A stretch of DNA of 64,000 nt from Chloroflexota bacterium (GTDB lineage: Bacteria > Chloroflexota > UBA6077 > JACCZL01), in assembly GCA_030447245.1 (NCBI GenBank), contig JAUJPG010000001.1, positions 460,129 through 524,128 of the forward strand, given 5' to 3'. How positions within the stretch are numbered: the first letter of the stretch is position 1; the number at the start of each line of letters is the position of its first letter. This document shows positions 2,967 to 13,330 of the stretch, one piece after another. The notes under the pieces are model-generated. The model saw only the letters and a list, made by a program, of their open reading frames with translations. It had not been told where the DNA came from and did not search any database. The translations under genes were made by a program, and so were the position numbers.

Positions 2967-3238
2967 GAGACGGTACCTCCTGCCAGGAGACCCCGCACGA
3001 CGTCCCCGGCGTCCAGAATCTCCTCAGACTTGCAAGGGCAAGGAACGTGCCACCGGCGCACATACCATCGACCGCGGCCAGGCCACGGGTTGCTCCTTTC
3101 TGGACGGGATCGATCGAGCCGATGCCCGCCGTTGCCGCGTTTGGATCGGCCTGTTACCGTCTCGCCCGAGCGCTGTGAAGCGGCCGCCCTGGCGGCGGCG
3201 AGCGCGACGCAACCTGACGCGGAAAGCGGTGGAATCGG

Positions 3239-4723
3239 GTGAGCTCCACGGGACCGGCTGCCAAGAGCTGGACGTTCGATCCGTTCGCATCGGCCACCGA
3301 AATGCTGCGTGCGCTCCGCGCCGGCGCCGTCTCGGCGGTTGAGCTGCTCGAAGCCCACCTGCAGCGCGTCGAGCGGATCAACCCGCGGCTCAACGCAATT
3401 GTGATCCCGAATCCGGCGGCGCGCCAGGCCGCGCTGAACGCGGATCGCGCCCTGGCGTCCGAGCGCAGCGGCGGACCTACGGCCGGTGCGCTGGCCGGCC
3501 TGCCGCTGACGATCAAGGATTGCATCGACGTGGCCGGCCTGCGCACGACGGCCGGCGTGCGCGACCTGGCCGACCACGTCGCCGCCGCGGACGGGCCGGT
3601 CGCGGCGCGGATCCGCGCGGCCAGCGGGGTGCTGATAGGCAAGACGAACGTGCCGCCGATGGCCGGAGATTGGCAGACGGTGAACGCCATCTTCGGGCGG
3701 ACGCTCAACCCGTGGGACCCAGAGCGGACGCCCGGCGGCTCAACGGGCGGCGGGGCCGCGGCGCTCGCCGCGGGGTTGACCTCGCTGGAGCTCGGCAGCG
3801 ACATTGGAGGCTCGATTCGGGTGCCAGCAGCCTTCTGCGGGCTGTACGGCCATCGCCCGAGCGAGACGCTGGTGCCGCGCTATGGGCACGTCCCTGGTCC
3901 GACCGGCCCGAACCCGGCCTTTGCGATGGGCGTCCAGGGTCCGCTGGCCCGCGACGCCCGCGACCTCCAGCTGGCCCTGGACGTGACCGCTGGCCCGGCC
4001 GGCGATGAGGCGGTTGCCTGGCGCCTGGAGCTGCCGCCGGCGCGGGCCGAGCGGCTCGCCGATCTGCGCGTGGCGGTGCTCCCCGCGGCCGACTGGCTGC
4101 CGGTCGACGAAGAGATCGGCGCAGCGCTCGACGAGCTGGCCGCTCGTCTGAGCAGGGTGAGCGCGCGCGTCCAGGTGGCCTCTCCCGAGAGGTTCGACCT
4201 GCGCGAGCATGAGACGCTCTACACGACGCTGCTCGACGTGATGATCTTTGGCGACCTGCCGCCGGCGGTCCGAGAGCGGGCGATCTCCGAGCACCGAGGC
4301 TCGGACGACCCGTTCGCGGCAGCCCACCTGGCGGGCCTGGAGGCGACGGCGAACGACCTATCGCGGCTGTTCGAGCGGCGCGAGCAGTACCGAGCCGCCT
4401 TTCGGGCGTTCTTCCGCGAGTGGGACGTGCTGCTCACACCGGTCACGATCGTGCCGGCCTTTTCGCACGACGACAGCGTGTTCGCCGCTCGCCGGCTGGA
4501 CGTCAACGGCGCGTCGGTGCCGTACGCTCGACTCCAGGTCTACCCGGGGCTGGCCGGCTTGAGCGGTCAGCCGGCGACGGCGTTCCCGGTCGGCCGGACG
4601 CGGGGCGGCCTGCCGATCGGGCTGCAGGCGATCGGGCCATACCTGGAAGACCGCACTCCGATCCGGTTCGCCGAGCTGGTCGCCCGCGAGTGGGGCGGGT
4701 TTACCCCGCCGCCGGGATACTGA
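3239..4723 (+). CDS. Amidase signature family protein
   Basis: A 494-residue enzyme with a complete Ser-cisSer-Lys triad: Lys93 in LTIKD, Ser168 in TPGGSTGGG and Ser192 in SDIGGSIRVPA. The family hydrolyses amide bonds (amides, carbamates, Glu-tRNA). It is unlikely to be GatA, because no gatB or gatC is nearby and the C-terminal half differs. The frame begins at a GTG with only a weak ribosome site, so the exact start is uncertain. The substrate is unknown. It stands alone between the csp gene and a hypothetical gene on the opposite strand. Confidence 0.9.
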   Translation: MSSTGPAAKSWTFDPFASATEMLRALRAGAVSAVELLEAHLQRVERINPRLNAIVIPNPAARQAALNADRALASERSGGPTAGALAGLPLTIKDCIDVAGLRTTAGVRDLADHVAAADGPVAARIRAASGVLIGKTNVPPMAGDWQTVNAIFGRTLNPWDPERTPGGSTGGGAAALAAGLTSLELGSDIGGSIRVPAAFCGLYGHRPSETLVPRYGHVPGPTGPNPAFAMGVQGPLARDARDLQLALDVTAGPAGDEAVAWRLELPPARAERLADLRVAVLPAADWLPVDEEIGAALDELAARLSRVSARVQVASPERFDLREHETLYTTLLDVMIFGDLPPAVRERAISEHRGSDDPFAAAHLAGLEATANDLSRLFERREQYRAAFRAFFREWDVLLTPVTIVPAFSHDDSVFAARRLDVNGASVPYARLQVYPGLAGLSGQPATAFPVGRTRGGLPIGLQAIGPYLEDRTPIRFAELVAREWGGFTPPPGY

Positions 4724-4793: not shown

Positions 4794-5276
4794 CTAGAAC
4801 GTTCGGCCGAGGGTCTGGTCCCAGGGTTGCGGGGCGGCGACTCGGATGATGTCTTCCTCGCGGTCGCGGACGTAGAGGTACAGGTGGGCGAAGAACTCGA
4901 CCTCTGGCAGCGGATAGGTCGGGTTGATGCACAGGTACGGGTAGATCCAGGGTGGCTTGACGCCGGGCGCGCAGCGGACCTCGATGCGCCGACCGACCCG
5001 GAGTCGGTAGGTGACTCCGGGGTAGATCCGCGAGGGCAGTTCAAGATAACCCTCGCGCTCAAGGCGGGCCCAGGCTTCCTCGCCGAGGGTGGTCCGGGCG
5101 ACCTCGCCGGCACGCGCGCGGGCGGCGACGTAGTCGGCAGTGGAGAAATCCCAGCCGGCCGACCTCTTAGGCAAATGGTCCCAGCGCTTGAGCCAGGGCC
5201 GCTCGAGCGTCGCGCCATCAGCGCCATCCGCGTCACTGCCGAAGAGCCAGCGCCAGAGCGCATCGAGGCTAGGCAT
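4794..5276 (-). CDS. Hypothetical protein
   Basis: A 160-residue protein I do not recognise. It has no signal peptide or membrane segment. It is rich in aromatic and charged residues, with a Pro/Tyr-rich stretch (KPPWIYPYLCINPTYPLPEV) and an acidic C-terminal half (LYVRDREEDII). Codon positions look genuine, with GC-rich third positions like the neighbours, and it is the only plausible reading of this interval. Just upstream lies the palindromic repeat cluster, so its promoter must be close to or within the repeats. Confidence 0.6.
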   Translation of the reverse strand: MPSLDALWRWLFGSDADGADGATLERPWLKRWDHLPKRSAGWDFSTADYVAARARAGEVARTTLGEEAWARLEREGYLELPSRIYPGVTYRLRVGRRIEVRCAPGVKPPWIYPYLCINPTYPLPEVEFFAHLYLYVRDREEDIIRVAAPQPWDQTLGRTF

Positions 5277-5338
5277 AGCGACAGCAGTGGGACATCGCGG
5301 GCGTCGTCGTCATACTCCCAGAACCACGGCGGAGCCCC

Positions 5339-5540
5339 GTCATCGTGAGCCCCCAGCGGTCATCGTGAACGGAGCCCGGTCATCCCGAGCGGCCCCAGCG
5401 GTCATCCCGAGCGGCCCCAGTGGGTCATCCCGAGCGGAGCGAGAGATCTCATGCTGACCGGAGCGCAACCATGAGATCCCTCGCTCCGCTCGGGATGACC
5501 GAGAAGATGCTCGGGATGACGGGGCTCCGTTCGGGATGAC
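5339..5540. repeat. Nested palindromic repeat cluster (GTCATCCCGAGCGGA units)
   Basis: Five units related to GTCATCCCGAGCGG start at 5339, 5359, 5379, 5401 and 5424 in the forward direction, and three inverted units end at 5499, 5520 and 5540. The best pair, 5424-5453 and 5470-5499, is an inverted repeat of 30-base arms with one mismatch around a 16-base spacer, and would form a very strong hairpin. Units 1 and 2 are degenerate (GTCATCGTGA). It resembles the short dispersed palindromes of many Chloroflexota and other GC-rich genomes. It carries no protein and lies upstream of one minus-strand gene and downstream of another. Confidence 0.85.
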
Positions 5541-5575
5541 CGGTCGGTCAGCCTATGCGAACGAGTCTCTGGTAA

Positions 5576-5809
5576 TCAGCCGCCGGCGATCGGCGCGATG
5601 ATCTGGTACTCCTCGACCTTGGGGTCGAACGGCTGGGTGTCGATGACGTGCTGGCCGTCGACCTTCCTGGAGACGACGCAGCCCTTGTCACGGGCCTCGC
5701 GGATGATCCGCTCGGCCTCAGCGATCTGGGCCCGCGCCTCCTCGGTGTCGGTGGTCTCCCACTCGACAACCTGGTGCCCGCGACGGTTGGCGACGATGCA
5801 CCGTTGCAT
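5576..5809 (-). CDS. Small conserved-looking hypothetical protein
   Basis: A 77-residue soluble protein beginning MQRCIVANRRGHQVVEWETT. It has a charged helix (EEARAQIAEAERIIREARDK) and ends in a hydrophobic PIAGG tail. The frame stays open upstream to ATGs at 5881 and 5926, but that part is Arg/Pro-rich and looks non-coding, so I use 5809, which has a weak GGCGG before it. I recall similar small proteins ending in a PxxGG tail in Thermomicrobia-like genomes but cannot name the family. Function unknown. Confidence 0.55.
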   Translation of the reverse strand: MQRCIVANRRGHQVVEWETTDTEEARAQIAEAERIIREARDKGCVVSRKVDGQHVIDTQPFDPKVEEYQIIAPIAGG

Positions 5810-6078
5810 GGCGCCGCCAGAGGGCGTTTTGGTCCTGCGAGGCCGGCCAGTACCACGTTCCACCCAATCCGACGCGCCCATAGTGCCGAGTTTGGGCCGT
5901 CTCGGATCGGCCTCCCCGGCCGGCACGGGCGGGACTAGCGCAGGCGGCGCGGGATGCTAGGGCGTTCTGTCTGCTATGTTGCGGCGGAGCATTGTGGGTG
6001 CGGCCCCGGGAGTGCGGATAAGGGGCCGCGGGCGCGGGGGTTCGTGGGGCTCAGCAAGAGGACGTGGATGTTCCCCAC

Positions 6079-6273
6079 GTGAAAGTACGCGACGTCCTCC
6101 GCCGCCTGCAGGACGATGGCTGGTATGTGGATCGGACCCGCGGCAGCCACCGTTAGCTAAAGCACCCGACCAAACCGGGTGCCGTGACCGTGTCGGGAAA
6201 GCTATCCGTCGACATGCCGCGGGGGACGTTGCAGAACGTGTGGCGACAGGCGGGACTCAGGGAGGAGCGATGA
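6079..6273 (+). pseudogene. hicA: HicA toxin gene with an in-frame TAG
   Basis: From a GTG at 6079 the frame reads VKVRDVLRRLQDDGWYVDRT, then RGSHR, a TAG at 6154-6156, then LKHPTKPGAVTVSGKLSVDM through RQAGLREER, ending at a TGA that overlaps the hicB ATG. The whole matches HicA, a small dsRBD-fold mRNA interferase. The catalytic His in GSHR is kept and the family normally reads GSHRQFKHP, so the TAG sits exactly where Gln (CAG) is expected: a single C-to-T change. Both halves are otherwise intact over 64 codons. Either the toxin is inactivated or the base is a sequencing error; amber readthrough is less likely. Confidence 0.88.
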
Positions 6274-6479
6274 GACAGTACGCCGTGGTCATCGAGAAGG
6301 GCGAGAGCAGCTACGGGGCGTACGTCCCGGACCTGCCGGGCTGCGTAGCGGTGGGCGCGACACCCGAGGAAGCGAGCACGCTGATCCGCGAGGCGATCGA
6401 GTTCCATCTTGAGGTCCTGCGCGATGCGGGCGAGCCGATCCCGGAGCCGACCAGCCGCCTGGAGTACGTCGAAGTTTGA
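6270..6479 (+). CDS. hicB: HicB-family antitoxin
   Basis: A 69-residue protein with the HicB core: YGAYVPDLPGCVAVGATPEE, then ASTLIREAIEFHLEVLRDAG. It binds and neutralises HicA. It has no C-terminal DNA-binding domain, so it is the short HicB form. Its ATG overlaps the hicA stop (ATGA), the usual arrangement, with GGAGG immediately upstream. It looks intact although its toxin partner carries a stop codon, so it could survive as an orphan antitoxin. Confidence 0.92.
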   Translation: MRQYAVVIEKGESSYGAYVPDLPGCVAVGATPEEASTLIREAIEFHLEVLRDAGEPIPEPTSRLEYVEV

Positions 6480-6543
6480 GACGACGTGACACGGGTCGGG
6501 CGATCGGTTGACGTGCCGAGAGCCTCAAGGTTCTGGTGATGGG

Positions 6544-6870
6544 TCAGGCGCTCGCTGCGCCTGTCGGCTCGCCGCCGAGCCCCACGGCCGCGCGAGCTCG
6601 GCGATACTCGCCGCTGCGCTCCCAATGCGGTCGCGGCTCAACCTCGTCCCACTCGGTCAAGGCCACAGTCTCCTGCCGGCTATCCCAACCGAGCCAGAAC
6701 GAGAAGATGCGCCCTTGCCAATCAATGACGCAGCCGCTCGCCTGCTCGATGCCACCGCGCATGCATTCGCCCTCGCCGGTGACAAAGAAGTAGGCATACG
6801 CCCCCCGGACCCGCTCGGAGACGAGCCGATCCAGGACTGTCCAGTACCGCGCGTCATATTCGGCAGCCAT
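6544..6870 (-). CDS. Hypothetical protein
   Basis: A 108-residue protein I do not recognise. It begins MAAEYDARYWTVLDRLVSER and contains a compact beta-rich middle (GGIEQASGCVIDWQGRIFSFWLG), then a conserved-looking WDEVEPRPHWER stretch. There is no signal peptide, membrane helix or metal motif. The last dozen residues (GLGGEPTGAASA) are low complexity. It follows hicB on the opposite strand and precedes the AtuA pair with no obvious link. Confidence 0.55.
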   Translation of the reverse strand: MAAEYDARYWTVLDRLVSERVRGAYAYFFVTGEGECMRGGIEQASGCVIDWQGRIFSFWLGWDSRQETVALTEWDEVEPRPHWERSGEYRRARAAVGLGGEPTGAASA

Positions 6871-6924
6871 GCTCTCGTCCCATCATAGGTAGTCCAACGC
6901 CCAGCCCGCGGGGCACGCGTGGGA

Positions 6925-7269
6925 CTAGCGCAGGCGGGGCGGGACGTAGTCGTCGGGGACGGTTATCGGGAGGTCGAGGACGACGGAGCTGCGGGTCTTG
7001 CCGTGGGGGTCCAGGGCCAGCGAGACGGTCACGCCGCCGTGCAGGGCACGCCGGAGGACGAAATTGAGCGCGCCGATGTTCGGCAACTCGTAGCGCGTAA
7101 CGTCGCCCTGAACGAGCGTGCCGTACAGGGCCTTGACGCGGTCGGCGGTCACCTGCTCGCGGAGCAGCTCGTAGTCGGTCGGGTCGTAGGCGATGACCCC
7201 GACATTCGAGGTGTCGGTCTTGTCGCCGGAGCGGGCATGGGCGACCTCGCGGAGCGGGATCGTCTTCAC
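6925..7269 (-). CDS. AtuA-like C-terminal (ferredoxin-fold) domain protein
   Basis: A 114-residue protein matching the small C-terminal module of AtuA-type proteins: LREVAHARSGDKTDTSNVGV near the N-terminus, then NFVLRRALHGGVTVSLALDP. In Pseudomonas AtuA (acyclic terpene utilisation) this module is fused to the large domain; here it is a separate gene 47 bases downstream of the large-domain gene, and the two were probably made as partners. No other Atu pathway gene is nearby, so a terpene substrate is not supported. Confidence 0.82.
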   Translation of the reverse strand: MKTIPLREVAHARSGDKTDTSNVGVIAYDPTDYELLREQVTADRVKALYGTLVQGDVTRYELPNIGALNFVLRRALHGGVTVSLALDPHGKTRSSVVLDLPITVPDDYVPPRLR

Positions 7270-7316
7270 GGACGAGCCAGCCTCACGGCGACGCTCGCCT
7301 CACGGCCGTGACGGCG

Positions 7317-8663
7317 TCACTCGCCGACCGCTTCCATGACGATCTCGGGACGAACCAGCTCGCGCGGGATGAAGGTTGACTCCACGGCCAGGACCTCGCG
7401 GACGGACATCGCGGCGATGCTGCCGGCGGATGGGCCGGACAAGCCGAGCGCGTCGACCTCGTGCGCCACGATCCGGGCCTCTTCCTCAGTGTCGGTCCGC
7501 GCGGCCACCCGCAGCCGGACCTCGTAGGGCGGCTCCAGCGAGCCCTTCAGCGCAGCGCCTGGAAAGAGCGCGTCGACGCCGACGCACTCGACGCGCGTCT
7601 CGCGGGCACGGACTCCGAGCAGCTCCAAACGGTCAAGCACGACCTCGCCGGCCAGGCGCGCCCGCTCCACGGCACCAGGGCCGCCGTAGGACACCTGGCC
7701 CTCGCCGATCCAGCCAGCCAGGTAGCCAACGCTCACCTTGAGCGTGTCCGGGCGGGGCGATCCGTTGCCGCCGCTGAAGCGCACCAGGTCAGGCCCGGCC
7801 TGGTGAAGCTGCACGCCAGTGAAGTCGGCGGTGACGTCCGGCGTCAGGTAACGGGCCGGGTCGTGCAGCTCGTACAGAAGCTGCTCCTTGCAGGTTGCGA
7901 CGCTGACCAGGCCGCCGGTGTCGGGCGTCTTGGTCAGCAGACCAGCACCGGAGGCGTCGACTTCGACGATCGGGTAGCCGAGGTTGGCGAGGCCCGGCAC
8001 GTCCTTGTAGCCAGGATCGGCGAAGTATCCACCGGTGACCTGGGTGGTGCATTCGACGAGGTGGCCGGCGATCGTTCCCGCCCCGAGCCGCTGCCAATCG
8101 TCCCAGCCCCAGCCGAGCTCGTACTCCAGCGGGCCGAGGGTGAGCGAGGGGTCGGCGACGCGACCGGTGATGACGACGTCGGCGCCGAGCGCGAGGGCGT
8201 CGCGAATCGGCTCGGCGCCGAGATAGGCATTGGCCGAGACGACGCGCGGCAACGCGGCGACCGGCTCGCCGGTCTCAGCCACGTTGAAGTCGCCGGCGCG
8301 GACAAGCTCCAGCACGTCGTCGCCGAGGACCGTGGCGACCTTCAGCCGTTGCAGCCCGAGCTCACGGGCAAGCTGGACAGTCCGCGTGCCGGCCGCTCTG
8401 GGATTGGCCGCGCCGAGGTTGCCGACAATCTTGACGCCGCGCTCGACGCAGGCCGGCAGCACCCGGCGGAGCCGCTCGTCGAGGTACGGGTGGTAGCCGC
8501 GCTCGGAGTCGCGAAGCTTGTCGCGCTGGGCCATCGCGATCGTCCGCTCGGCCAGGCATTCGAACACGAGGTAGCCAATGTCGCCCCGCTCGACGAGCGG
8601 CAACGCCGCGTCGAGTCGATCTCCCGAGAAGCCCGCGCCAACGCCGATCCTGACCCGCTTCAT
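7317..8663 (-). CDS. AtuA-family large domain protein (DUF1446)
   Basis: A 448-residue protein of the DUF1446/AtuA family: MKRVRIGVGAGFSGDRLDAA at the start, ERGVKIVGNLGAANPRAA, GADVVITGRVADPSLTLGPL, then VTGGYFADPGYKDVPGLANL. The reading frame is open further upstream, but that part is non-coding in character; the ATG at 8663 with an AGGTG site fits family starts. The biochemical function is not firmly known; AtuA was named from citronellol/geraniol catabolism in Pseudomonas. The small C-terminal module is encoded next. The gene is divergent from a 2-hydroxyacid dehydrogenase across 169 bases. Confidence 0.88.
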   Translation of the reverse strand: MKRVRIGVGAGFSGDRLDAALPLVERGDIGYLVFECLAERTIAMAQRDKLRDSERGYHPYLDERLRRVLPACVERGVKIVGNLGAANPRAAGTRTVQLARELGLQRLKVATVLGDDVLELVRAGDFNVAETGEPVAALPRVVSANAYLGAEPIRDALALGADVVITGRVADPSLTLGPLEYELGWGWDDWQRLGAGTIAGHLVECTTQVTGGYFADPGYKDVPGLANLGYPIVEVDASGAGLLTKTPDTGGLVSVATCKEQLLYELHDPARYLTPDVTADFTGVQLHQAGPDLVRFSGGNGSPRPDTLKVSVGYLAGWIGEGQVSYGGPGAVERARLAGEVVLDRLELLGVRARETRVECVGVDALFPGAALKGSLEPPYEVRLRVAARTDTEEEARIVAHEVDALGLSGPSAGSIAAMSVREVLAVESTFIPRELVRPEIVMEAVGE

Positions 8664-8832
8664 CAACACCTCGGCCACTACTATGCTCCGGTCCCGCGCC
8701 CGAGTCAAATGCCGCGACTGGCCGGGAGTGCCTCCGTACGAAGGTGACGCACACCCGGCTGGATCACGGGGGCTGGATGGGGAGGTCGGCGCTGGCGTAG
8801 AGTAGGACCGAACGCGGCGCCGGAGGATCGTC

Positions 8833-9822
8833 ATGCAGGTCTGCTTCCTGGACCCGCTCGAGGAGCGCGTCAGGGAGTTTCCCGCTCGGTATCTAGCAGA
8901 GCACGCGGTGCATTACGCCGAGGGGCAGCCGGAGCTCATCCCGGCCGACACCGAGGCGCTGATCACCTGGAGCGGGCTGCTGGACCGCGCGCTCGTCGAG
9001 CGGCTGCCGTCGCTCCGGCTGGTCCAGCGAATCGGATATTTCCGCGGCGGCGGGGATCTCAGGGCGGCGGAGGAGCGCGGAGTGCAGACGGCGGTCTGGC
9101 CGCACGGCGTCCTGAACCGGGTGGCGATGCACACGCTGATGTTTCTGCTGGCCCAGAGCCGCCAGCTCCTGCCGAGCCACCAGGCGACGATCGAGGGGGT
9201 CAACGCCATCGGCATGGAGCCGGCCTTCGCCGACCAGCGGCCGGTGGCGATGAACTGGGCCAAGATTCCACGTGTGGACAGCCCGTTCAACAAGACGCTC
9301 GGGATTGTCGGCTTCGGGGAGGCTGGGGCCTGCCTGGCACACCAGGCCGCGCCGCTCGACATGGACGTCCTGTACTACAAGCGCTCCCGGCTCTCGCCCG
9401 AGCAGGAGGCGTTCTACGGGGTCGAGTACGCCCAGCTCGACGAGCTGTTGCGACGCTCCGACTTTGTGGCGACGTTCGTCCCATACAGCAAGGAGACCGA
9501 GCACAGCTTCGGCGCGCGCGAGTTCGGGCTGATGAAGCCGACCGCTTTCTTCTTGAACACCGGGCGGGCGAACACGACTGACGAGGGGGCGCTGATCGGC
9601 GCCTTGAAGAGCGGGCGGATCGCCGGCGCGGGGCTAGACGTCTTCGCCTACGAGCCGCTGCCGCCGAACAGCCCGCTGCTGACGTTGAAGAATGTGATCA
9701 TGACCCCCCACAACGCTGGGGGGGTGGGCGGATGGCAGGACGTCTTCGGACGGATCGCCGCTAACCTGAGCCGCGTCCAAGCTGGGCGGTCACCGGTGAG
9801 CTGGGGCATCCCACCCGCGTAG
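8833..9822 (+). CDS. D-isomer-specific 2-hydroxyacid dehydrogenase
   Basis: A 329-residue NAD-dependent dehydrogenase. The Rossmann glycine motif GIVGFGEAGA lies near residue 155. Catalytic residues are all visible: Arg in LNTGRANTTDEGAL, Glu in LDVFAYEPLP and His in TPHNAGG. The family interconverts 2-oxo and D-2-hydroxy acids. The N-terminal domain is divergent (VQRIGYFRGGGDLRAAEERG), so the substrate is unknown. The start has GGAGG six bases upstream. A TAGAGT box about 30 bases before the ATG may be its -10. It may share a regulatory region with the AtuA pair. Confidence 0.9.
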   Translation: MQVCFLDPLEERVREFPARYLAEHAVHYAEGQPELIPADTEALITWSGLLDRALVERLPSLRLVQRIGYFRGGGDLRAAEERGVQTAVWPHGVLNRVAMHTLMFLLAQSRQLLPSHQATIEGVNAIGMEPAFADQRPVAMNWAKIPRVDSPFNKTLGIVGFGEAGACLAHQAAPLDMDVLYYKRSRLSPEQEAFYGVEYAQLDELLRRSDFVATFVPYSKETEHSFGAREFGLMKPTAFFLNTGRANTTDEGALIGALKSGRIAGAGLDVFAYEPLPPNSPLLTLKNVIMTPHNAGGVGGWQDVFGRIAANLSRVQAGRSPVSWGIPPA

Positions 9823-9907
9823 AGGCGGTTCACGAAGTAAACCTCTCCAGCTGAGGCGTCAGGACGACGGGCAACCCGGTAGGCGTGCGCGGCACTCTAC
9901 CACCCCG

Positions 9908-10450
9908 ATCTACGGCGCTTCGACCGATGCTTCCGCCACCCTGAGCGCGAGCGGGCAGGTCTGGTTCGGCGACGAGACGACTCTGCGCGAGTTCCCGCTG
10001 TTGCGAGCGGCCCGGGCCAGGCGAGGCGAGCAGGTCGAAGTGGTCATCTCCGGCCGCAACGCGCGGCGCGTGCTGCTCGGATGATCAACGTCGCCAGCGG
10101 GGAGCTCGTCCGAGTCGTCCGCGCGCGTAACCGGGGCCACGATGTCGGCGCGGCCGTGGTGGCCTTGGGCCAGCACCGGGGCCCCGGCCTGACCTTGCTG
10201 GTCTGGGATAACGCTCCGCCCTACCACCTACCTCACCCGTGGCGCTGCCGCGGCGGCCGCGATCGAGTCGGCCTGGCTGCCGTTCCGCTCCCCGGAGTTG
10301 AACCCCTGCGAGGACCTCTGGCGTCACCTCGAGGCCACCATCGCCGCCAACGGTGCCTACCCCACCGTCGACGAACTCGCGGAGCGCGCCGCCGCGTGGC
10401 TCGCTGGCATCCCGGCCGCCAACGCCCTTCGCTCCTGTGGCCTGCGCTAG
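9908..10450 (+). mobile_element. Decayed IS630-family transposase
   Basis: Three frames in sequence recover the C-terminal two thirds of an IS630 DDE transposase: VWFGDETTLREFPLLRAA from the first frame (to about 10081), INVASGELVRVVRARNRGHD through LLVWDNAPPYH in the second, and AWLPFRSPELNPCEDLWRHL to the TAG at 10448 in the third. The DDE triad residues are visible (D in FGDET, D in WDNAPP, E in NPCEDLW). The N-terminal helix-turn-helix part is gone and at least two frameshifts separate the pieces. I see no clear terminal inverted repeats. Its stop overlaps the stop of epsI on the other strand. Confidence 0.85.
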
Positions 10451-11181
10451 TCCAGGTTCGCCTGTGTACCCGCCTCACGGCCAACGGGCAGTGCGAGGGC
10501 GAGTGGGCTCGAATCGACCGTTCGGTGGAGGAGCTGGCGGATGAACCGCTCCGCCGTCATCGCCGCCGCGTCCAAGTCCCCATTGGTCACCGGCGCGGCG
10601 ACCTGCATGATGTAAGCACCATCCTCGATCCGCCGCCGCCCGTCGCGCCAGAGATACCAATAGAAGATCACGCGATCCTCGCCTCGCAGCTTGTGGTGGG
10701 CGAGCATCCGATTCAGGCCGACCTCGCCCGTGTCGAGCGCGACCGCGCGGACCGGCAGCTCCTGCACCGACCAGTCGACGCTGTAGCAGATCTCCGGACG
10801 GTGCAGCTTGCGCGACGTCGTGCTGCCCATCACGGTGAAGTACGCCTCGTCGCCAGACGATGTCCGATAGGCGCGGTTGACCAGGTACTCTGGCAGGATG
10901 TAGGCGACCGCTTCCAGGTTCAACGGGAAGTCCGTGCCCTCCCAGACGCCGATCCGGTGCGGCACCTGGCGCTCCCCTTCCTCGAGCGTGAAATTGAAGG
11001 GTGTCACGACGTCGGCCTTGCCGTTGTTGAACCGCACCACCCCGCCGCGATCCAGCGTGAAGACGAAGTGATCGGGCGCGATGTCGGCCGGCCGAGGCGG
11101 TCGAACGACCTCGAGCGCCGTGACAATCGCCAGCGTCGTGAGCAGCAGGGCGCTCGAGGTCAGGAGGCGACGGGAGACCAT
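10447..11181 (-). CDS. EpsI/DUF3485 exosortase-associated protein
   Basis: A 244-residue protein with an N-terminal membrane anchor (residues 8-25) and the exosortase-associated EpsI domain: GTDFPLNLEAVAYILPEYLV, SRKLHRPEICYSVDWSVQEL (with the conserved His and Cys), and FYWYLWRDGRR. It normally acts with an exosortase in sorting envelope proteins or in exopolysaccharide export. It overlaps the exosortase gene by 22 bases. The 3' end abuts the decayed IS630, and the last residues (REAGTQANLD) look unlike the family, so the natural C-terminus may have been cut by the insertion. Confidence 0.85.
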   Translation of the reverse strand: MVSRRLLTSSALLLTTLAIVTALEVVRPPRPADIAPDHFVFTLDRGGVVRFNNGKADVVTPFNFTLEEGERQVPHRIGVWEGTDFPLNLEAVAYILPEYLVNRAYRTSSGDEAYFTVMGSTTSRKLHRPEICYSVDWSVQELPVRAVALDTGEVGLNRMLAHHKLRGEDRVIFYWYLWRDGRRRIEDGAYIMQVAAPVTNGDLDAAAMTAERFIRQLLHRTVDSSPLALALPVGREAGTQANLD

Positions 11182-12017
11182 GGCCGCTCCAGTGCCTTAC
11201 CGACAGCGAACAGCAGGCCCAGCGCCAGGAGCCAGAACACGACGCCGCCTAGGTCGTGGTAGTAGCGCATCGCGGCATCGGCGTCCTGCCAGTGTGCGAT
11301 GCACAGCAGCGAGCCGAGCCGGAAGACGTTCGCGGTCAGCGCCACCGGCACGATCGCCCCGAGCAGCAGAAGGTTCCGTCCGACGGACGGCAGGCCGAGT
11401 ACGCGCATGAAGAGCAGGCCGAGCGAGGCCAGGGTGACGGTCGAGTAGAGCCCGCTGCACTGGACGCCGACGATGAACGAGGCCGCCGGCAGGCTCACCT
11501 CGGCGCCCTGGTAGGTCGCCGGGACGCCGACCAGGGCGACCAGGCTGGCCGTCGCCACGGTGCTCAGCCGCTGGAAGTAGAAGCCGAGGTCGTCCATGAA
11601 CGGCAGCGGGATCGCCACCAGCAGGTACCCGATCGGGAAGGCCAGCAGGCGCAGGCCCGGCGGTCCCAGCCACCAGCCGGCGAGCCCGAGCAGGACGAGC
11701 ACCAGCGCCAAGGCGGCGAGGAACTCGGACCCGGCCAGCGCGCCGACCACCCGCAGCGCCAGGCCGGCCACGACAAGCGCGGGGCCGACCCAGCCAACCG
11801 ACACGGGCACCCGGCGCACGAGGCGGGGCAGCGCGAGCACGACGAGGACGGCCGACACCAGCGGCACGAAGAGCCCGTGCTCGTAGTACGGGTTATCCAG
11901 CCATTCCCGCGTTAACCAGAGGATCGGGCCGGCGAAGACCAGCCCAACCAGCACCGCGAGCCAGCTTGCCGCGAGCAGCGCGCGCGCCGGTGGCAGGCGA
12001 AGATCCGAAATCTGCAC
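11160..12017 (-). CDS. Exosortase (membrane transpeptidase)
   Basis: A 285-residue polytopic membrane protein with about eight helices. The exosortase catalytic residues are in place: Cys187 in VGVQCSGL, Arg233 in TANVFRLGS and His254 in YYHDLGG. The enzyme cleaves the C-terminal PEP-CTERM tripartite tail of secreted proteins. It lies between its likely target gene (56 bases upstream) and epsI (overlapping downstream), so the three form an operon. Length is normal for the core exosortase without a fused EpsI domain. Confidence 0.92.
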   Translation of the reverse strand: MQISDLRLPPARALLAASWLAVLVGLVFAGPILWLTREWLDNPYYEHGLFVPLVSAVLVVLALPRLVRRVPVSVGWVGPALVVAGLALRVVGALAGSEFLAALALVLVLLGLAGWWLGPPGLRLLAFPIGYLLVAIPLPFMDDLGFYFQRLSTVATASLVALVGVPATYQGAEVSLPAASFIVGVQCSGLYSTVTLASLGLLFMRVLGLPSVGRNLLLLGAIVPVALTANVFRLGSLLCIAHWQDADAAMRYYHDLGGVVFWLLALGLLFAVGKALERPWSPVAS

Positions 12018-12073
12018 GTCGACTCCGGGCGGAGTGCGGGGGCGCGGGGCGCCCCCGGCATCGTCGCGTCGGG

Positions 12074-12799
12074 TTAGACGTCGTCACCGCGACGGCGGCG
12101 CCGACGGGTCGCACGTGCCCGGGTCAGGGCGTAGCCGCCCAGGCCGGCCAGACCGCTCCCGAACATCAGCATCGTCGACAACTCCGGAATCACCGGCGGC
12201 GGCGTCGGCGTCGGTGCGGCGCCAGTCGCCGCTGCCGCCCCCGGCGCCGGCGCTGCCGGCGGCAGCGGCAAGGCGTTCGTCAGCACGAGGCGGATTGTGC
12301 CGCCCCCCGGATCAACCGGCAGGAAGAACTGCGCCGTCCCGTTGACAATCTGGCATCCTCCTGGGAGCGGAGTGCCCCCGCCCGCCCCCTGTGTGGCGAC
12401 GCACCCCACGAGAACGAAGCCGGTGGGCGCCGTTTCGGTGATGGTTATAATCTGACCACGTTCGAAGCTGGCCGCGGTAGGGGTGAAGTCACTTGGCTCG
12501 CAGTCGGCGCTCACCGTGACCACCACGGGGTCGTTGAACCTACCCCCGATAACGTTGCCCGAGACATCAAAGCCGGCCAAACTGCCCGCAGCGAGGCCGG
12601 GGCTTGCCAGCTTGCAGAGGGACGCGGAGGGGAGGGGCGGCGGCTGCCCAAGCGGGGAACTGAGCGGCAGGCGTTCGTGGCTGCCAATGCCCACTGCCGA
12701 AGCGATCCCCTCGCTCGAGCCCAATCCTGCGAGCTGGGTGGGCCCTAGGGCCGCGGCGGCCAGCGCGACCACCAACACGAACACGCGAGCATACCGCAT
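12074..12799 (-). CDS. Secreted protein with PEP-CTERM-like sorting tail
   Basis: A 241-residue protein starting at an ATG with GGAGG seven bases upstream. A signal peptide covers residues 1-24. The body is small and Gly/Pro/Thr rich, followed by a Pro-Ala-Thr linker (about 190-207). The C-terminus is tripartite: VIPELSTMLMFGSGLAGLGG, a hydrophobic stretch and a run of six arginines. This matches a PEP-CTERM signal with PEL in place of PEP. Being the first gene of the exosortase operon makes it the probable dedicated substrate. The body fold is unknown. Confidence 0.85.
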   Translation of the reverse strand: MRYARVFVLVVALAAAALGPTQLAGLGSSEGIASAVGIGSHERLPLSSPLGQPPPLPSASLCKLASPGLAAGSLAGFDVSGNVIGGRFNDPVVVTVSADCEPSDFTPTAASFERGQIITITETAPTGFVLVGCVATQGAGGGTPLPGGCQIVNGTAQFFLPVDPGGGTIRLVLTNALPLPPAAPAPGAAAATGAAPTPTPPPVIPELSTMLMFGSGLAGLGGYALTRARATRRRRRRGDDV

Positions 12800-13330
12800 G
12801 TTGCCTCCTCCGCCTTGCTCCACTCAGGTGAGAGCAGCACCAGTCTACAGACTTGCGTGCACCGCAAGAGGGCGCCTCACCTCATAATTCCGCGGCCCGG
12901 GAAGGATGCGTCGCCTGATAACCAACCGGCCGATCCCGCTCGACGCGACCTCGGTAAATGTGCCCGAAGGCGTGGCGTCGCTACTGGGGATGCTAGTCGA
13001 GGCGTTGATCATCGCCGTGCCGAACAACGGTCTGGACGTCCGGGGTTTGGCCTTCTGGCAAGCGTTCGCGAAGGGCTTCATCATCGTCCCGGTGGTCAGC
13101 CTGGACACGCTGCCATGACGTCTCCAGCCGCTTCGCGGTGGGCAGGTCGCGGACGACGGCCGACGATGATGATACGTGCAATAGATTGCCGCGGCGCACT
13201 GCTGGCGGACGGCGCGGGACTCGCGGGCGCCACCGGCGGGGAGCAGGCGGCATGCATCTTGCGGCCCACCATCGAGTGAGACGGCCGAGCCGGATGACCG
13301 GACCGAGCTATCAGGCCGGGAGGTGCAGGC
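12800..13330. other. Gap with no supported gene
   Basis: Upstream of the PEP-CTERM gene and of the next plus-strand gene. A 70-codon plus-strand frame (12906-13118, ending VPVVSLDTLP) and overlapping minus frames are open but match nothing I know and lack convincing codon bias. The promoters of both flanking operons must lie here; I could not place them. Confidence 0.4.

Follow-up and report, generated by a model that had tools for sequence, protein, structure and literature searches.

A three-gene operon from a Chloroflexota bacterium probably encodes, as judged from its sequence, a working sorting system of the exosortase/PEP-CTERM type, in which the client protein ends in a PEL tail and the host apparently lacks an outer membrane. 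The operon lies in a stretch of 64,000 nucleotides, hereafter called the window, and represents a variant of the known exosortase system with a tail that falls outside the standard model. The case for a working system is made by the protein families, the catalytic residues, the recognition of the tail by a profile from which it had been left out, the adjacent tails in relatives, the co-occurrence of tails and enzyme, and the absence of Omp85. Against it stand the Leu that takes the place of Pro in the motif, the lack of a match to the TIGR02595 model, the lack of an exopolysaccharide context, and family relatives without an exosortase.

The Operon and Its Enzymes

The operon is read on the minus strand from 12799 to 10447, and its open reading frames give the order secreted target, exosortase, EpsI. 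The target gene (12074..12799, minus strand) codes for 241 residues, with its ATG at 12799, preceded by AGGAGG, and its stop at 12074. It is followed by the exosortase gene (11160..12017, minus strand; GTG start, 285 residues), which overlaps by 22 bases with the gene of the EpsI-like protein (DUF3485; 10447..11181, minus strand; 244 residues). The region upstream of the target gene showed no recognisable promoter of the sigma-54 or sigma-70-like type. Within the window, the operon is surrounded by metabolic genes (AtuA, 2-hydroxyacid dehydrogenase and mandelate racemase-type genes) and not by exopolysaccharide genes. On the plus strand, a truncated and frameshifted IS630-like transposase remnant (window ~9890-10440, translation read by eye) has its end close to the EpsI stop codon, and a 70-codon ORF (MRRLITNRPIPLDATSVNVPEG...VSLDTLP; window ~12904-13116), matched by no Pfam family, lies divergently upstream of the target gene.

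The exosortase passed the TIGR02602 model with 127.3 bits (cut-off 105.55) and scored 155 bits against PF09721. From its hydropathy it is predicted to be a polytopic membrane protein, and in an alignment of 11 exosortases Cys187, Arg233 and His254 sit in conserved columns. Exosortase A (XrtA, TIGR03109) was the top-scoring named subfamily with 131.9 bits, far below its cut-off of 208, and the enzyme stayed under the cut-off for every other named subfamily too, so that it belongs to no assigned exosortase type. EpsI passed PF11984 (41.6 bits, cut-off 26.1), came slightly below the cut-off of 42.8 for TIGR02914, again with 41.6 bits, and has a single hydrophobic segment, at its N-terminus. No solved structure matched the exosortase or EpsI by sequence, and the first scans of genome contigs and viral contigs, in which a single exosortase was used as the query, gave no match.

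The Target and Its Sorting Tail

The target is laid out as a signal peptide (MRYARVFVLVVALAAAALG..., judged from sequence and hydropathy), an orphan ectodomain, a Pro/Ala-rich linker and a PEL-type sorting tail (12089..12190, minus strand). The C-terminus has the form VIPEL-hydrophobic-RATRRRRRR: the tail, IPELSTMLMFGSGLAGLGGYALTRARATRRRRRRGDDV, consists of the IPEL motif, a glycine-containing hydrophobic stretch of ~18 residues and the basic cluster RARATRRRRRR, whose six Arg are followed by GDDV, and the protein end reads VIPELSTMLMFGSGLAGLGGYALTRARATRRRRRRGDDV. Together with the signal peptide, the target thus carries all three C-terminal elements, i.e., motif, hydrophobic stretch and basic cluster. 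The motif departs from Pro-Glu-Pro, on which TIGR02595 is based, in its third residue, which is Leu and not Pro, and this model gave no match to the tail, either in the protein or in the host genome with the E limit relaxed to 10.

A leave-one-out profile was made with the window tail excluded, from 20 tails that all belong to other genomes. It gave the window tail 24.8 bits and, at the scale of the genome, an E of 3.5e-5, whereas 20,000 shuffles of the last 45 residues reached 11.5 bits at best, which argues that the tail is not a product of chance. Using the same profile, no second tail was found in 104 kb (the window plus 20 kb on each side), where the next ORF had an E of 3.8, confirming that the window holds no other tail. 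A preliminary description of this DNA had claimed the three-gene order with EpsI as the third gene, an exosortase with all three catalytic residues, a PEL-type tail with a six-arginine end, and the absence of any other sorting tail in the 64 kb; all of this held, the coordinates being exact and the families now being assigned by profiles (EpsI by PF11984).

The ectodomain has no convincing homologues in 400 genomes of the phylum, and its matches in other genomes were rejected as out of frame or unrelated. The target matched PF24514 (prealbumin-like) weakly, with an E of 0.02 and a score short of the cut-off, and its AlphaFold model, made without an alignment, had a pLDDT of 43 and was too poor for a structure search.

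Tails in the Host Genome and in Its Relatives

The host assembly is a Chloroflexota MAG of 5.2 Mb in 131 contigs with one copy of the exosortase. The genome-wide search for further tails that had been proposed in the preliminary description was carried out with a codon-degenerate pattern, with the tail as a single query and with two profiles, and the window target was the only tail found; because the assembly is 90.2% complete and 150 of 166 and 150 of 231 first-look candidates were scored in the profile searches, this count of one is a lower bound. A second match to the pattern (C73:302002), PEAATMLLFGVGGDSGRGLY, is without the helix and the basic end and was put down to chance. The other profile matches that were read proved to be a dioxygenase/glyoxalase-like protein (recognised by eye), internal helices and out-of-frame ORFs, none of them a motif-bearing tail, and the sub-threshold TIGR02595 matches, readable at four of seven loci, were a transporter-like C-terminus without the motif and internal or antisense frames. 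Matches to the pattern with one mismatch were at background (61 vs 69 for a reversed-pattern control), and none of the 28 that were read was a tail.

Exosortases are sporadic in the Chloroflexota, being present in 19 of 400 sampled genomes and in 4 of 16 from the order. The two remaining members of the host's family are without one, and the system is therefore either dispensable or acquired. With an order-trained profile, each of the four genomes of the order that have an exosortase yielded tails at E<0.001, and none of the 12 non-carriers did, no tail there falling below E 0.008, so that tail and exosortase are either both present or both absent. All four carriers have a tail protein immediately upstream of the exosortase; loss of the tail with retention of the exosortase among close relatives, which had been named as one finding that would speak against the preliminary description, did not occur.

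Three carriers of the same order (G001, G002 and G009) share the gene order of the window; in each of them one tail protein immediately precedes the exosortase, and the remaining tails are not linked to it. G001 and G002 have three PEL tails each, and G009 has three clear PEA tails and two less certain ones, for one of which the reading frame continues. The target of G001 and G002 is immediately preceded by a sugar transferase, with a HlyD-type adaptor downstream in G002, and the system is thereby connected with polysaccharide export in these genomes. Outside the order, a single PEP tail adjacent to the exosortase was found in G090 (same class), a single PEL tail in G229 (another class), and tails at a distance from the exosortase in G188 (two), G360 (two) and G025 (about four), which belong to other classes. 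The client set in the lineage is small, with one to about five per genome and one detected in the host. TIGR02595 missed every PEL and PEA tail tested, and the PEP tails of the loci L036, L143 and L144 passed; annotation therefore misses such targets, and target counts for the Chloroflexota come out too low with the standard PEP-CTERM model.

One Client or Several

An ordinary multi-target system, whose further targets lie in the missing tenth of the host genome or end in tails that have diverged beyond the reach of the profiles, has close to an even chance of being the correct description. Several targets are present in all three of the exosortase-bearing relatives of the order, the failure of TIGR02595 on all PEL and PEA tails tested indicates that such tails are easily missed, and the two profile searches scored 150 of their 166 and 150 of their 231 candidates. 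Yet the order-trained profile detected the tails of the relatives, with E from 1e-20 to 1e-3, and no further one in the host, and a single tail is also what G090 and G229 have.

That the exosortase serves its adjacent target alone, with PEL tail and enzyme mutually matched, is plausible but falls short of an even chance. It would account for the one tail given by the four host searches and for the target being the first gene of the operon, and there is a precedent in rhombosortase, as single-target sorting enzymes tend to adjoin their target (PMC3237569). The completeness of the assembly (90%) and the two incompletely scored candidate sets weigh against it, as do the relatives: of the dedicated target that had been proposed in the preliminary description, the single tail detected in the host agrees with it, but G001, G002 and G009, which belong to the same order and share the gene arrangement, have 3, 3 and 3-5 targets, most of them unlinked, and dedication is therefore not a property of the lineage.

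The preliminary description had also taken the PEL motif to suggest a matched enzyme-substrate pair, and had proposed an exosortase tree as a check. In a maximum-likelihood tree of 35 sequences, the window enzyme groups with that of G090, which serves a PEP target (support 99/94, with a long-branch warning), and the enzymes of G001, G002 and G229, all with PEL tails, form a distant clade (support 100/99). PEL therefore accompanies two distant enzyme groups, and its use as a marker of a matched enzyme is not supported by the tree, in which tail type and enzyme clade disagree. Since all tails seen in the clade of G001, G002 and G229 are PEL, some matching of enzyme and tail may exist there, which would provide no explanation for the window. 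A dedicated and matched pair is possible for the host genome alone and is not backed by the relatives.

It is improbable that the operon is a remnant, acquired horizontally or decaying, with one surviving client and its function gone: the two exosortase-free family genomes, the degraded transposase that abuts the operon, the lack of exopolysaccharide genes beside it and the treatment of low target counts as possible remnants in PMC1569441 would agree with this, but the three frames are intact, the catalytic residues and EpsI are kept, and GC and third-position GC of the exosortase and EpsI genes are near those of the neighbouring genes.

The Envelope and a Proposed Mechanism

A homologue of Omp85/BamA (PF01103), used as a single marker, was not found in five exosortase carriers (the host and four others), and 7 of 14 control genomes were positive. 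This agrees with reports on the Chloroflexota, which are described as being without BAM and LPS genes and as having an envelope whose nature is under debate and which can consist of several layers (PMC13319060, PMC8871954). The host appears to be monoderm-like, with an outer membrane apparently absent by this one marker, and the possibly monoderm-like lineage of the preliminary description is borne out to that extent. The PEP-CTERM/EpsH system was described in 2006 as restricted to outer-membrane bacteria (PMC1569441); here, none of the five carriers has Omp85, and the occurrence of an exosortase with a tail in an archaeon (L132, see below) means that an outer membrane is not a requirement of the superfamily. 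Among the papers searched, none was found that deals at length with exosortases of Chloroflexota or of monoderms, and an earlier notice is possible.

With the exosortase/PEP-CTERM system (EpsH, TIGR02602; TIGR02595; PMC1569441), the window system shares the Cys/Arg/His exosortase, the EpsI partner, the signal peptide, the C-terminal tail of motif, helix and basic end, and the co-occurrence of tail and enzyme. It differs in the PEL tail (PEA in a relative) that TIGR02595 misses, in a host without Omp85, in the location of the operon outside an exopolysaccharide locus, and in the one target detected, compared to the median of eight given in PMC1569441. Single-target rhombosortase/GlyGly-CTERM (PMC3237569) resembles it in having one detected target beside the enzyme, whereas its enzyme is unrelated, and the multi-target relatives of the window system still keep one target adjacent.

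The steps of the proposed mechanism, i.e., retention by means of the tail, cutting and passing on, are modelled on those of the exosortase and sortase families (PMC1569441). The target would be exported via its signal peptide, and the C-terminal hydrophobic stretch would hold it in the cytoplasmic membrane with the arginines inside. Going by the known family, the exosortase would then cut near the P-E-L motif by means of Cys187, together with Arg233 and His254, and the protein would reach the surface either released or transferred to a putative acceptor (a lipid, a glycan or an envelope polymer), with EpsI as the presumed membrane-anchored partner in the cleavage or transfer step. For diderms, it has been proposed that the exosortase route takes proteins to the outer membrane or across it. 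A tentative and somewhat doubtful generalization would be that Chloroflexota without an outer membrane use exosortase systems in which the third residue of the motif is loosely constrained (PEL, PEA, PEP), clients are very few and the enzyme attaches proteins to a single-membrane envelope, the system of the window species being reduced to one enzyme and one client. The action of exosortases on their targets is hard to test in genomes with many targets and an outer membrane; the Chloroflexota loci, with few targets, one of them beside the enzyme, and cells without BamA, would separate the job of the enzyme from outer-membrane transport.

Exosortase Loci Elsewhere

As in the window, a secreted tail protein lies directly upstream of the exosortase in other Chloroflexota loci (L143 from Anaerolineaceae, L144 from a Litorilinea aerophila MAG, and L140 from G090), which differ from it in their classical PEP motif and, for L143, in having two adjacent tail proteins. 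The archaeal locus (L132, Methanosarcinales MAG, 4800-6786) has a PEA-tail protein (CIPEAATIALVGVGILGIFGIGLRRRE) directly upstream of a TIGR02602-type exosortase. In L041 (G065, 3038-3589), a long exosortase-like ORF is preceded by two short secreted proteins in tandem, both with PEA-type tails. In L039 (G269, 5860-9800), a repeat protein ending in YDPPTWALLAGGAAALGFYAVLSRRRRRQ precedes the exosortase, and the tail profile matches a second place on the same contig, just before the exosortase, which is possibly another tail variant.
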